Assembly (NCBI GenBank): GCA_014859655.1
Contig: JACUTT010000012.1
Coordinates: 1 to 51,305, forward strand
Length of the DNA: 51,305 nt
Direction of reading: 5' to 3'
Source: Campylobacterales bacterium
Lineage (GTDB): Bacteria > Campylobacterota > Campylobacteria > Campylobacterales > Sulfurimonadaceae
Positions 46,312 to 51,305 of this stretch are shown here, one piece after another (the stretch's first letter is position 1; each line of letters opens with the position of its first letter). The notes below the pieces were generated by a model. The model was not told the DNA's origin and made no database searches. It saw only the letters and a program-made list of their open reading frames with translations. A program made the position numbers and the translations under genes.

Positions 46312-46328
46312 GGTTACAAAGAGGTTAC
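46312..46328 (-). promoter_or_regulatory. Direct GTAACC repeats upstream of pstC
   Basis: On the minus strand GTAACC occurs twice, 11 bp apart (one helical turn), about 65-80 nt before pstC and overlapping the end of the mscS-type gene. Pho boxes are also direct repeats of 11-bp period, but the sequence differs and the distance to a TATTAT (46280-46285) is larger than usual. Confidence 0.25.
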
Positions 46329-48164
46329 CAACTCTTTTCTTTGCATCTCACTGCCGGAGAGATAGAGGGTTTGTGCAGGCAGGGCAAACTCAATGGCATG
46401 TTTTTTCAAAATCTCCAAAATGCTGTAGAGAAGCTCCTCTTTGATCCGGTACCACTCTTCTCTGTCTGTCGAACGGCTGAAGACCTGAACCAAAACGCTC
46501 ATATGTGAAGGGTCAAGTTTGTCGAGATAGATAAAACGGTCTTTTTTCAGTCCGAGCAGATGGCGCGTAGAGACAAATAGCGCCTTGCTGGACTCGTTTT
46601 CATAGCGTTCGATATCATCGCTTTGGACAAGGTTGGGGTCGGAGGCGATCATGTAGCGGATCTCCTCTATCGCCTCTTTGAGCAGCGCAAGATCGGTGTT
46701 GTAGGATACGGCGATACTTGTCTTTATCTCGCGGCCCAGTCGCCGTCTACTCCAGTTTACTATGGGTTTGAGCGCGGCTTCGGCATTGGGCATGATGATA
46801 AGCGAGTTGTCAAAAGCGCGGATCTGTGTAGAACGCAGACCGACCTTGACTACCTCGCCCTCAAGCGTTCCGATGCTGATAAAGTCTCCCTGAGAGAAGG
46901 TGTCGTCAAGCAGAAGGTTAAGCGAACCAAAAAGATTGGCAATGCTCTCTTTTGCGGCAAGGGCAATGCCGATACCGAAGATCCCCAACGAGGCAAGCAC
47001 CGTCTGAAGTCCCACGCCCATCTTGTTGAGGTAGAAGACAAAGGCAGAGATAATGATGAGACTTTTGAGCATATCAAGGGAGAGCGAGAGCAGGGCTTTT
47101 TGGTTTTCGCTGCTGTTCTTCGTCTCAAAATAGCCGATGACAAGATAGGCCAGAAGTTCCATGGCCAGATAGGCACCCGCAAAGACATAGGTGAAAATGA
47201 TAAAGGACTGCAGCAGCGAACTGGGCAGCAGAGGATACATCAGTGTCAAGATCAGATAGTACAGGCCTGTTACGCCCAGCAGAAGTTTGATGGGGCGTAG
47301 AAGCTTGTTATTTTCGTAGTGCTTGAAACTCAAAAAACTAAACCGCAAGACCCATTGAGAAAGATGCAGACTCCCCCAGAATAGAATAGCGACAACCGCA
47401 ACCGCAACCAGTTTTCCGCTGTTGAGGTAAAGAAAACTGATCTTTTTGTTCAGCCAGCGCGCCGAAGGAGCAGAATTTACGCTGTTGATGATGTCGCTAT
47501 AGTGGATCAGGGTAAAGATGGTATTTTGAGTAAGAAGTTTGGCATTGTCTGCGGTAAAGTCAAGCAGCTGAGCATAGGTCTCGGTGGCACTGATATAGGA
47601 TTTGAAATTTTTTCGCGTAGCTTCGGCCAGAGGGTTGGTGTCGTCGGCTACACTTCTGTAGATCTGCATAAACCTCTCTTTTTCTCCCAGGGGGAGGTCC
47701 AGTCGCATCTTTTTACTGAACTCGAGGATCTCTTTTTCGCTGGCATAGGCTTTGACCATACTTGACAATCCGATAATATAGGCATTGATAGCGTCGAGCT
47801 GCTCCAGGTAGGCGAGTGCGATCTGATCGCGTTTGACGGCGGTGCTGTTTCCCAGCTTGATATTTAATGCAATGCGGCTTTTGAGAAACTGAGTCTCTTT
47901 TTGAAATTCATCCTGGAGAATGAAGCCTTCCGAGTAGGGGTCCTCTTTGATGCTTAACAGTATGTCCTGCAGATAGCTACGGGTCTGCTTGAACATCTTC
48001 TGCATTTCCTCATCGCTCACGGGAGCCGTGTCTTCAAAGGCTTTTACCTGGAGGGTCTGAATCTGTTTTATGGGGTAGAGAACAGGGGTTTCGAGCAAAA
48101 TATTTTTTGCGTCATAAGCAGACAAGAGAGAGAAGAAAAAAAGAAGAGAAAAAAGAATACGCAT
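46314..48164 (-). CDS. MscS-family mechanosensitive channel, large form
   Basis: Membrane protein of 616 aa. A signal peptide (residues 1-16) leads a helical periplasmic domain of about 200 residues (KQTRSYLQDIL, coiled-coil-like). Several membrane segments follow, then the MscS pore helix and beta domain (LGIFGIGIALAAKESIANLFG, DDTFSQGDFISIGTLEGEV, GLRSTQIRAFDN). The C-terminal cytoplasmic part is complete. Such channels release solutes under hypo-osmotic stress. It shares its strand with pstCAB but has its own upstream region. Confidence 0.92.
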   Translation of the reverse strand: MRILFSLLFFFSLLSAYDAKNILLETPVLYPIKQIQTLQVKAFEDTAPVSDEEMQKMFKQTRSYLQDILLSIKEDPYSEGFILQDEFQKETQFLKSRIALNIKLGNSTAVKRDQIALAYLEQLDAINAYIIGLSSMVKAYASEKEILEFSKKMRLDLPLGEKERFMQIYRSVADDTNPLAEATRKNFKSYISATETYAQLLDFTADNAKLLTQNTIFTLIHYSDIINSVNSAPSARWLNKKISFLYLNSGKLVAVAVVAILFWGSLHLSQWVLRFSFLSFKHYENNKLLRPIKLLLGVTGLYYLILTLMYPLLPSSLLQSFIIFTYVFAGAYLAMELLAYLVIGYFETKNSSENQKALLSLSLDMLKSLIIISAFVFYLNKMGVGLQTVLASLGIFGIGIALAAKESIANLFGSLNLLLDDTFSQGDFISIGTLEGEVVKVGLRSTQIRAFDNSLIIMPNAEAALKPIVNWSRRRLGREIKTSIAVSYNTDLALLKEAIEEIRYMIASDPNLVQSDDIERYENESSKALFVSTRHLLGLKKDRFIYLDKLDPSHMSVLVQVFSRSTDREEWYRIKEELLYSILEILKKHAIEFALPAQTLYLSGSEMQRKELVTSL

Positions 48165-48297
48165 AAAAACCTCTAAACTAGTGGGCTGCCTGTCAAGAAC
48201 ACCCTGTAAAAAGGGCTTCTCCTGACAAAAGTGCTAATATTATAACGCAGATCCATACTAAAAAAACCGACAACAAGAAAACGCTCGCAGAGCAAAA

Positions 48298-49458
48298 TCA
48301 TCTTCCAACAATCATATGCAATTCACTGTCATAGCGATATTCAAGGATATCCCCGGTAAGTATCATTTCTATTGTTTTTTCAATAATTTCAAAAGGAGCA
48401 ATAAACCACTCTCTGGGCATATGACGTTGTCCTTCATTGTCAAATATATCGATACTCAGGCATGATGAACCAAAGAAGCGATGGAGGAGCTGTTCAAGCT
48501 TATGCGGGTTCATGTTATAACACTCATACACACTAACGATAGAAACGGGTGCCATAAGATAGGTTGGCTCATTTTCAGAATTTTTGATTCGTTCTTTGAC
48601 ATCGATTTTTGAGAAACCAATTTTGTACAGATGCTCAATTGATTGGATATCAGGATGGGTACTTTTGGACTTTAAAATATAAATATACCCGGTGGATTCG
48701 TCTTCATTGGTAATGCCGGCTAATTTATCAAGTACCTTTTCGTCATGCTCGGTTATACGTCGACCGTTTCGATACAGTTCTCTTGATAATGATCGAAGTA
48801 GTAAGTCAGATTCTGTTCCATTCTCAAAAATACATCGTAATCTGGCATTGGTTTTTCCGTTGACTTGTTCTGTTCTTCCCTTTTTAGCTATGTAAACCAT
48901 CACGCCTTTTAAAATGAAAAAGGAGCCTTGGTGAATATCTTGTTCATTGGCGAATGGGAGCATTCTTCTTTTCTCATTGGCTAAATCAGCATGGCAGGCT
49001 TTAAATAAGTGCTCAAATTTTTCAAAATCTTTACACGGCTTTTGATTTGCTCGGTATTCAGGCATCTGTATTTCTTTCGGCACATGTTTGAGAGTGAAAA
49101 TATCCTCATCATCGTCCAAAATTCCAAATGCATCACCGCTCAAAATATCCTCTATGGAGTTGATTTCAAGCTCTTGTGCAATTTCTAAAAGATTATGACG
49201 GTCATGCGCTTGAAGTGAATCCATCTTGTCGGGATTTTCACGCAATCCTTTGAGTCTTGAAAAAAGTGTCGCTTCCTGCATATCTTTCATATTTTTTTGG
49301 GGTTCTCGCTGATGTTTATCGATAAATCCATTAATCTCTTCAAAAGAGGCAGTGAGACGTTCGTCTTCGTTTCGTGCCGGAGAGGATTTTGCTTTTACTT
49401 CCAACAATCCCAAGGGGTCATTTGTAAAAATTTCGAGGAGTTTGGCAGTATTGTCCAT
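48298..49458 (-). CDS. GIY-YIG nuclease-family protein (T5orf172-like)
   Basis: Protein of 386 aa. The N-terminal 120 residues are acidic and of no known family. A middle segment (GSFFILKGVMVYIAKKG, then NARLRCIFENGTESDLLLRS, about 177-226) is a small beta-rich domain also found fused to GIY-YIG proteins. The C-terminal third is GIY-YIG-like: GYIYILKSKS, LYKIGFSKIDVKERI, LEQLLHRFFG and MPREWF, which contain the two Tyr, the Arg, His and Glu expected at the active site. It starts within the helicase stop (TGATG), so it is made in step with the helicase. Its role is probably nucleic-acid cleavage. Confidence 0.85.
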   Translation of the reverse strand: MDNTAKLLEIFTNDPLGLLEVKAKSSPARNEDERLTASFEEINGFIDKHQREPQKNMKDMQEATLFSRLKGLRENPDKMDSLQAHDRHNLLEIAQELEINSIEDILSGDAFGILDDDEDIFTLKHVPKEIQMPEYRANQKPCKDFEKFEHLFKACHADLANEKRRMLPFANEQDIHQGSFFILKGVMVYIAKKGRTEQVNGKTNARLRCIFENGTESDLLLRSLSRELYRNGRRITEHDEKVLDKLAGITNEDESTGYIYILKSKSTHPDIQSIEHLYKIGFSKIDVKERIKNSENEPTYLMAPVSIVSVYECYNMNPHKLEQLLHRFFGSSCLSIDIFDNEGQRHMPREWFIAPFEIIEKTIEMILTGDILEYRYDSELHMIVGR

Positions 49459-51305
49459 CAGGCTTGCATCTTCCGTTTGAGGTCTTTTAGAAATACAATC
49501 GCTTCACCCATACGTTTTTCGAGAGGATCAAACGCGTTGATATCCGGCTGCACCCCTTTGTCTTTGATAAACTGATTGATTTTAGGCCATAGCAAAATAG
49601 CCTCTTCTTCACTCATTTGTATTCGGGTTGCTTCGATGGATTCTTGAATCAGTTTCAATACCTTCGTCGTCACCGATTTGGAGAGAATTTCAAAGGCTCT
49701 TTGAAACGGATTAACACTATCAATCAGGTCTATGTGTAGATCATCGATATTAACGAATTTCCCTGCCATAGAGATAAACTGCTTACCGCCACTTTCTTTG
49801 ATCTCTCCGCTTTTAATAACCGAATCAACAACAACATGCTGACGTAATTGTTCAACTTCGTCATCGCTTAGATCGGGATATTTGATTTTGATAATCTTTG
49901 GAATCAGGACTTTATTAATCACTTCGGGATCAACATTCCCCGGCATCGCTTTGAGCATCGTATCATCTTGCAGAATCGTTGCTTTGAGATCATTGAGATC
50001 GGATTCGATGATGTCTTCGACTCTTTTACTGGTTGGCTTTTTAAACCCTCTGATTTTCATCTCTCCGGGTTTATTTCCCTCATTGTCATTTTCCATACGG
50101 GGCTTGAAGTTGAAATTCGGTGCCAATACCTGCTCCATCAACAATGAGGCGGTAATTGCTTTGAGCATATTGTTTACCGAAAGTTTCACTGCCATATCGG
50201 TGGCATCGGGTTGTGCGATAAGGTTCGTGAACTGTGCATGGGTCTTGTTATCACTGTCGCGGGTGGCACGGCCGATAATTTGAATAATCTCAGTAAGAGA
50301 GCTTCGATAGCCTACGGTCAGAGCATGTTCACAATACGGCCAGTCAAACCCCTCTTTTGCCATACCAAGAGCGATAATAAGATCCATATCCTCCATGCAG
50401 TCGATGTTTCGCAGATAGGTGACGATTTTTTCTCTATCTTTGGGATCATCATTGACCAAATCAGCTACTTTGATAATCTTGCCGTCCCCATGACGTTTCA
50501 CATGGACAACCCCATTCTCATCTACTTGTTCAACAATACCGATCATGTCCAAAATCGTATCGACTTCCTTGTGCTTATCTTTGGTTGATTCACCTGAATT
50601 GACATTGGGGATATGCAGAATCGTTTTTTTGTCCGTGTCCAGTACCTCTTCGATGGCGGAGGTATATTTCCCTTGATAAAAGTGATACCCGATCCCCAAC
50701 GATTTGAGATACTCATACCCATTTAATTGCTCGTAATAGTTATAGGTCACTTTGGTAAATTTCGATTCATCTTCGGGTAATAAAATCGGGACACTGTCCC
50801 CTCTAAAATACGAACCCGTCATGGCGACGATGTGAACATTTGACTTGGCCATAACAGAGCGAAGAAGCTCTCCCAAACGACTCTCACCATCCACCGATAC
50901 GTGGTGAAATTCGTCAATAGCTAAAAGAGTGCCGTTAAACTTGCTCTCTTCAAGTTGTTCAAATGCAAACCGTAACGTTGAATGGGTACAGATCAAAATC
51001 TTCTCATCGCTCGCCAAAAACTTTTTAAACGCTTCGACTTTACTTCCTTCTCCTCCGGGAGTACAGAGATTATAAATAGGGTTTGGTTCCCAATCCGCAT
51101 AAAATCCGTGCATCATCAGATTTGTCGTTCCGAATGATCCACCGATGGAGCGTTCCGGTACGGCTACAATCGCTTTTTTAATCCCTTGATGGATGAGCTT
51201 ATCCAGAGCGATAAACATCAATGCTCTTGATTTACCCGATGCCGGAGGAGCTTTTAGAAGGAGGTATTGAGCATTTCGTGCCGCAAAGGCGCGTTCTTGC
51301 ATCTG
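49458..51305 (-). CDS. Superfamily 2 DEAD/DEAH-type helicase, partial
   Basis: At least 615 residues; the frame is open at the right edge of the window, so the N-terminus is missing. Motif I is KAPPASGKS, motif II is DEFHH, motif III TGSYFR and motif VI IIGRATRDSDN, giving a type III restriction / UvrB-like helicase. About 230 residues of helical sequence follow, with no known domain. It overlaps the GIY-YIG gene by 1 nt. Such pairs occur in defence islands; the function of this pair is not known to me. It may act as a DNA translocase feeding the nuclease. Confidence 0.88.
   Translation of the reverse strand, partial: QMQERAFAARNAQYLLLKAPPASGKSRALMFIALDKLIHQGIKKAIVAVPERSIGGSFGTTNLMMHGFYADWEPNPIYNLCTPGGEGSKVEAFKKFLASDEKILICTHSTLRFAFEQLEESKFNGTLLAIDEFHHVSVDGESRLGELLRSVMAKSNVHIVAMTGSYFRGDSVPILLPEDESKFTKVTYNYYEQLNGYEYLKSLGIGYHFYQGKYTSAIEEVLDTDKKTILHIPNVNSGESTKDKHKEVDTILDMIGIVEQVDENGVVHVKRHGDGKIIKVADLVNDDPKDREKIVTYLRNIDCMEDMDLIIALGMAKEGFDWPYCEHALTVGYRSSLTEIIQIIGRATRDSDNKTHAQFTNLIAQPDATDMAVKLSVNNMLKAITASLLMEQVLAPNFNFKPRMENDNEGNKPGEMKIRGFKKPTSKRVEDIIESDLNDLKATILQDDTMLKAMPGNVDPEVINKVLIPKIIKIKYPDLSDDEVEQLRQHVVVDSVIKSGEIKESGGKQFISMAGKFVNIDDLHIDLIDSVNPFQRAFEILSKSVTTKVLKLIQESIEATRIQMSEEEAILLWPKINQFIKDKGVQPDINAFDPLEKRMGEAIVFLKDLKRKMQA

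Follow-up and report, generated by a model that had tools for sequence, protein, structure and literature searches.

The helicase and nuclease genes at positions 48298–51305 of the window, the 51,305-nucleotide stretch of DNA analyzed here, are very probably the restriction half of a restriction-modification (R-M) operon of the DnmA-YeeB-YeeC type, the methyltransferase (MTase) gene of which lies on the next contig. The supposed pair corresponds to two of the three genes in a known cluster that a contig end has split. The mobile three-gene system has already been described in other bacteria, and the operon presented here joins that cluster; a cargo slot between the MTase and helicase genes is its less familiar part. 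An orphan-looking helicase-nuclease pair is thus accounted for as one component of an R-M type that is both widespread and little understood. Its function is disputed, being described as inactive in Bacillus subtilis and, in a study cited second-hand, as protective in a Vibrio. The copy analyzed here looks full length and could therefore help to settle the dispute.

The window is an entire contig (C41), and the operon is cut at its end. Sequence to the right of the window was obtained from contig C17 of the same genome (G000), which joins by 55 bases: the last 55 bases of the window are identical to G000:C17:1-55, an exact overlap that has no second copy in the window or in the first 14 kb of C17. 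When the two contigs are joined, the helicase frame is longer by 24 residues, 639 in all, and its extended N-terminus is similar to the N-termini of six relatives. As the contig stops where the window does, the ATG at 51302 is an internal codon and not the true helicase start, which is base 127 of C17, 24 residues upstream. Beyond this start three features follow on the same strand of C17: a RhuM-family gene, an ORF6N remnant, and a complete gene for an MmeI-like MTase.

Table 1. Features of the operon and its surroundings; positions refer to the window unless contig C17 is named.
Feature	Position	Strand	Remarks
Gene taken to be MscS-like, flanking	46314..48164	-	protein 89% identical in same-genus genome G004
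GIY-YIG (T5orf172/MUG113) nuclease gene, YeeC-like	48298..49458	-	386 aa, complete
GIY-YIG domain, residues 257-366	48361..48690	-	invariant residues in 78/78 aligned nucleases
TGATG stop/start overlap, helicase/nuclease	49456..49460	-
SF2 helicase gene, YeeB-like	49458..51305	-	615/639 residues in window; 5' end open, first 24 residues on C17
Helicase motif II, DEFH	50904..50915	-	residues 131-134 of window part
Helicase motif I, PPASGKS	51228..51248	-	residues 20-26 of window part
55-base overlap with G000:C17:1-55	51251..51305	.	operon runs on into C17
RhuM-family gene	C17:130-1119	-	PF13310, E 4.5e-100
ORF6N remnant	about C17:1214-1369	-	51 residues, truncated; begins on MTase stop
MmeI-like MTase gene	C17:1366-4023	-	885 aa, complete; Pfam MmeI_N/hel/Mtase/TRD/C

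The earlier note, made from the window alone, described a translationally coupled helicase and GIY-YIG nuclease, and its reading of the two proteins holds. The stop codon of the helicase gene and the start codon of the nuclease gene overlap on the minus strand as TGATG. Pfam identifies T5orf172 (48.5 bits) and MUG113 (53.2 bits) in the nuclease, and both DEAD and Helicase_C exceed their cut-offs in the helicase. All of the checked GIY-YIG and SF2 residues, which we take to be the catalytic residues of the two families, are present, and most are invariant among 78 aligned nucleases and 65 aligned helicases: G257, Y260, K279, G281, R290, N315, E322, E350, and W351 in 78/78 nucleases, with H326 in 77/78, and the residues of motif I (GKS), motif II (DEFH), TGS, and motif VI in all 65 helicases. 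The N-terminus of the nuclease is acidic, as had been noticed, with 30 D+E against 16 K+R in residues 1–135, and the small beta-rich domain is predicted at approximately residues 166–237 in a model having pLDDT 84.7 and pTM 0.42. This model has no Foldseek match at E ≤ 0.001, although its GIY-YIG part was barely covered and the lack of a match for that part is uninformative; in a second fold comparison EF-P domain I is a weak match to residues 166–236 (Z 5.5). The beta domain might be an SH3-like barrel of the KOW/Tudor type, a reading of the model to be taken as a weak lead only. The predicted structure of the helicase is of moderate quality (pLDDT 77.5, pTM 0.54), and its fold matches are generic for SF2 and comprise many enzymes, HsdR of EcoR124I being among the top 50. 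A Pfam search of the helicase returned no PD-(D/E)XK family, and a sequence search of solved structures returned none matching the helicase or the nuclease.

A Paenibacillus relative's protein, used as the query against the genome, led to the MTase, which is 58% identical to it, and PDB entry 5hr4 matches residues 83–880 of the MTase (E 1.8e-196). It shares with MmeI and the Type IIL (IIG) enzymes the methyltransferase, spacer, target-recognition, and C-terminal domains. MmeI carries a nuclease motif, D-x9-ExK, fused to its MTase; Nye et al. give the motif as PD-ExK. At the aligned columns D-x9-ExK is missing from all 54 DnmA-type MTases compared (this one and 53 others), whereas a pattern search finds D-x9/10-ExK in 4/4 control MmeI-like MTases of the same class, three from helicase-less genomes (G131, G274, and G296) and one from G205, where MTase and helicase are on separate contigs. 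One control (L119) is unaligned at the motif column, so the column test stands on three controls, and a loose D-x7-13-[EQ]xK pattern occurs off the aligned column, within residues 36–105, in 11 of the 54. Judged by its sequence, this MTase is without the built-in nuclease and is not a single-chain MmeI or Type IIL enzyme; its N-terminal domain lacks D-x9-ExK, and the helicase and GIY-YIG activities would come from separate genes. A known type III restriction (Mod/Res) locus, which the earlier note had allowed for, does not apply, as ResIII, at 19 bits, stays below its cut-off of 22.5 and the MTase is MmeI-like rather than Mod; the locus is nonetheless of an R-M type.

In searches of defence-system models, which had been suggested earlier, PADLOC yields only weak partial matches for the helicase and nuclease (PbeA 26.1, Cas3 15.4, and PDC-S57 21.5 bits), and PDC-S57 was rejected because only the GIY-YIG domain matches, at positions 4–95 of 212 and not over the full length. 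NCBIfam and PHROGs return nothing specific for either protein. The 2023 PADLOC model PDLC03598 (Type IIG restriction enzyme) scores DnmA-type MTases at 961, 1030, and 1043 bits, compared with 1107 for an MmeI-type control. Because nuclease-less DnmA-type and MmeI-type MTases score alike, annotation by this model will probably leave the helicase and the nuclease unnoticed.

Gene order was compared in the best 80 of 139 nuclease relatives from one scan of the genome collection, which span many bacterial phyla and methanogenic archaea. The helicase adjoins the nuclease in all 80: the genes overlap in 51, lie 0–20 bp apart in 25, and are separated by 139 bp in one and by more than 150 bp in three, so that in 76/80 the two genes overlap or are no more than 20 bp apart. 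An MmeI-like MTase is encoded upstream in 61/80, and in the remaining 19 no more than 1,631 bp of contig precedes the helicase. This linkage bears directly on the earlier proposal of a defence module. A stand-alone helicase-nuclease anti-phage module working independently of methylation would account for tight translational coupling that is limited to these two genes and for the gene interposed between them and the MTase in the present operon, but the MTase is present in 61/61 relatives in which its place is visible and on the adjoining contig, and a two-gene module is thus largely refuted and very improbable. What stands of the proposal is that the pair is of a defence type and is patchy among relatives. 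Genome G200 has a DnmA-type MTase, on a contig that ends about 5.6 kb downstream of it, and no helicase match. Among the 14 named genomes of a control set, two have T5orf172 and two have MmeI_TRD, B. subtilis being one of the two in each case. Against the usual MTase-first arrangement, contig C50 of genome G294 (L137) has the order helicase-nuclease-MTase.

The operon is patchy and mobile. Its presence or absence in close relatives, a check that the earlier note had proposed, is informative: the nuclease was not found in 5/5 other genomes of the same genus that were searched, and of 298 genomes drawn from the class eight have the helicase and 14 the MTase (E ≤ 1e-30, MmeI-type enzymes counted too), this genome included in both counts. 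The GC content of the operon is 38.2–42.9%, compared with 47.6–50.5% in the flanking genes. In the same-genus genome G004 the same site is unoccupied, the flanking genes being approximately 420 bp apart, and nucleotide similarity to G004 stops at window position 48177 and at C17:4164. At the unoccupied site a 75-residue open reading frame (L105:2851-3078) lies between the genes for the kinase and the MscS-like protein; it was not found where the operon is present. The flanking genes are presumably of phosphate-uptake and histidine-kinase/response-regulator type, which puts the operon inside a pho/pst region split by the contig break, and not, as had been thought, at the edge of a housekeeping region. 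L005, the closest relative found (72% identity), has its nuclease gene among unrelated genes.

Plasmids are among the carriers, the helicase being found in 263 plasmid records, of which 118 are predicted to be conjugative. MTase, helicase, and GIY-YIG genes occur in that order at four of six plasmid places examined; on plasmid CP047288 the MTase is truncated beside IS26, and record NZ_MH061178 has no MTase in the 928 bp upstream before its end. Such carriage would suit a helicase and nuclease serving the maintenance or recombination of plasmids or other elements instead of defence. That role is nevertheless highly unlikely, given that the helicase is also found on other kinds of contig at unrelated sites, that linkage to a DNA methyltransferase is constant, and that the slot contains cargo genes of defence and toxin types.

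The earlier note could not match the pair to a named system, whereas the published dnmA-yeeB-yeeC cluster fits; a literature search for a named or characterized version of the cluster recognized no further paper beyond PMC9973331 and PMC7261158. As these two papers describe, DnmA of B. subtilis is an MmeI-like m6A MTase without the nuclease motif, followed by the helicase YeeB and the T5orf172 protein YeeC, and the gene order is kept in other bacteria; an R-M system resembling Type I is proposed there for the cluster. The operon analyzed here has the same order of a nuclease-motif-less MmeI-like MTase, an SF2 helicase, and a T5orf172/GIY-YIG protein, and is likewise a horizontally acquired island of lower GC; this match relies on the published domain architecture and on Bacillales relatives (L016 Paenibacillus and L067 Ureibacillus). 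It differs in having RhuM and the ORF6N remnant between MTase and helicase.

According to the same papers, deletion of single genes of the B. subtilis cluster leaves plaquing of three phages unchanged and deletion of dnmA leaves transformation unchanged, and the authors call the cluster a relic. A corresponding state here, with an orphan MTase surviving as an epigenetic regulator beside a non-functional helicase and nuclease, would be consistent with those absent phenotypes and with the truncation of the neighboring ORF6N gene. The same authors report, however, that YeeB and YeeC of B. subtilis are without C-terminal stretches, whereas the present proteins reach the full family length, with 386, 639, and 885 residues for nuclease, helicase, and MTase compared with medians of 394, 642, and 893, and have intact motifs; from its sequence the operon is apparently intact in all three genes. 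Helicases from other phyla retain 64–79% identity to this copy, and in Vibrio crassostreae deletion of the dnmA or yeeB homologues is reported to increase phage sensitivity (study cited in PMC9973331/PMC7261158). A defunct relic is therefore improbable for the operon presented here.

Most likely the operon is a three-protein R-M system resembling Type I in overall logic, in which the MTase probably marks the DNA of the cell and leaves unmarked foreign DNA open to destruction. The target-recognition domain of the MmeI-like MTase would recognize a short non-palindromic site and an adenine would be methylated in the cell's own DNA. At unmethylated sites the MTase might recruit the SF2 helicase into a complex, the helicase would translocate along or remodel DNA using ATP, and the translationally coupled GIY-YIG protein would nick or cut it, thereby restricting phage; with the MmeI nuclease lost from the MTase, cutting would occur in trans. 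Type I enzymes have a separate HsdS subunit and a PD-(D/E)XK nuclease domain within the HsdR motor. An m6A methyltransferase with target recognition and an ATP-driven SF2 motor are common to Type I systems such as EcoR124I and this operon, whereas here the recognition domain is fused to the MTase with no separate HsdS, and the nuclease, of the GIY-YIG type, is encoded by its own gene.

The RhuM gene between MTase and helicase may encode an accessory effector, and its position is one where genes are frequently interposed. The MTase-helicase gap exceeds 150 bp (507–5,103 bp) in 28/61 loci, compared with 3/80 for the helicase-nuclease gap, and where both junctions could be measured (61 loci) a long gap is found on the MTase side only in 26, on both sides in two, and on the nuclease side only in none. 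One of the 28 long gaps (L041) holds the C-terminal part of the MTase itself, assigned by position and sequence (MmeI_TRD and MmeI_C each match 1/56 slot proteins); another (L062) has no open reading frame of at least 85 residues, and two (L043 and L070) include a piece of a broken helicase. With L041 excluded, 27/61 long MTase-helicase gaps stand against 3/80 (Fisher p 5.5e-9, a guide only because the loci are non-independent and were found through the nuclease). The 56 slot proteins are the RhuM protein of this operon, one L045 protein added by hand, and 54 of 61 listed open reading frames, seven being left out (five on the minus strand and two pieces of broken helicases). Pfam identifies SLFN_AlbA_2 in 11 of the 56, Fic in four, RhuM in three, YhcG_C, HerA DUF87, SIR2_2, Zeta toxin, and Mrr_cat in two each, and a large AAA_13 ATPase in one.

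PrrC fires upon inhibition of restriction in some Type I systems. Tentatively, and with doubt prevailing, the junction could be a dedicated slot between modification and restriction genes that holds exchangeable effectors (RhuM, as in this operon, or Schlafen/AlbA_2, Fic, SIR2-HerA, PrrC-like ATPases, or YhcG nucleases) forming a second line that would fire once the restriction complex is inhibited. RhuM, Fic/Doc, and PrrC genes embedded in R-M operons are already known, according to PMC3710099, so the principle of cargo is not new. Toxin-like accessory genes inside an R-M operon are common to the operons described there and this one, which differs in having its cargo at the MTase/helicase junction of a DnmA-YeeB-YeeC cluster; within a limited literature search, this position may be new.

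In other genomes of the class several genes are present between MTase and helicase, at L134:3566-8543 and L136:3544-8252, including SIR2-like and HerA-like pairs, and at L135:3488-9497, including a large PrrC-like ATPase; these assignments combine reading of the sequences with the pooled Pfam tally. ORF6N genes are found upstream of the helicase in two genomes of the same family (L137 and L139), the latter also having a RhuM-type gene there, and a second RhuM-family match is present in this genome at G000:C52:15394-15822.
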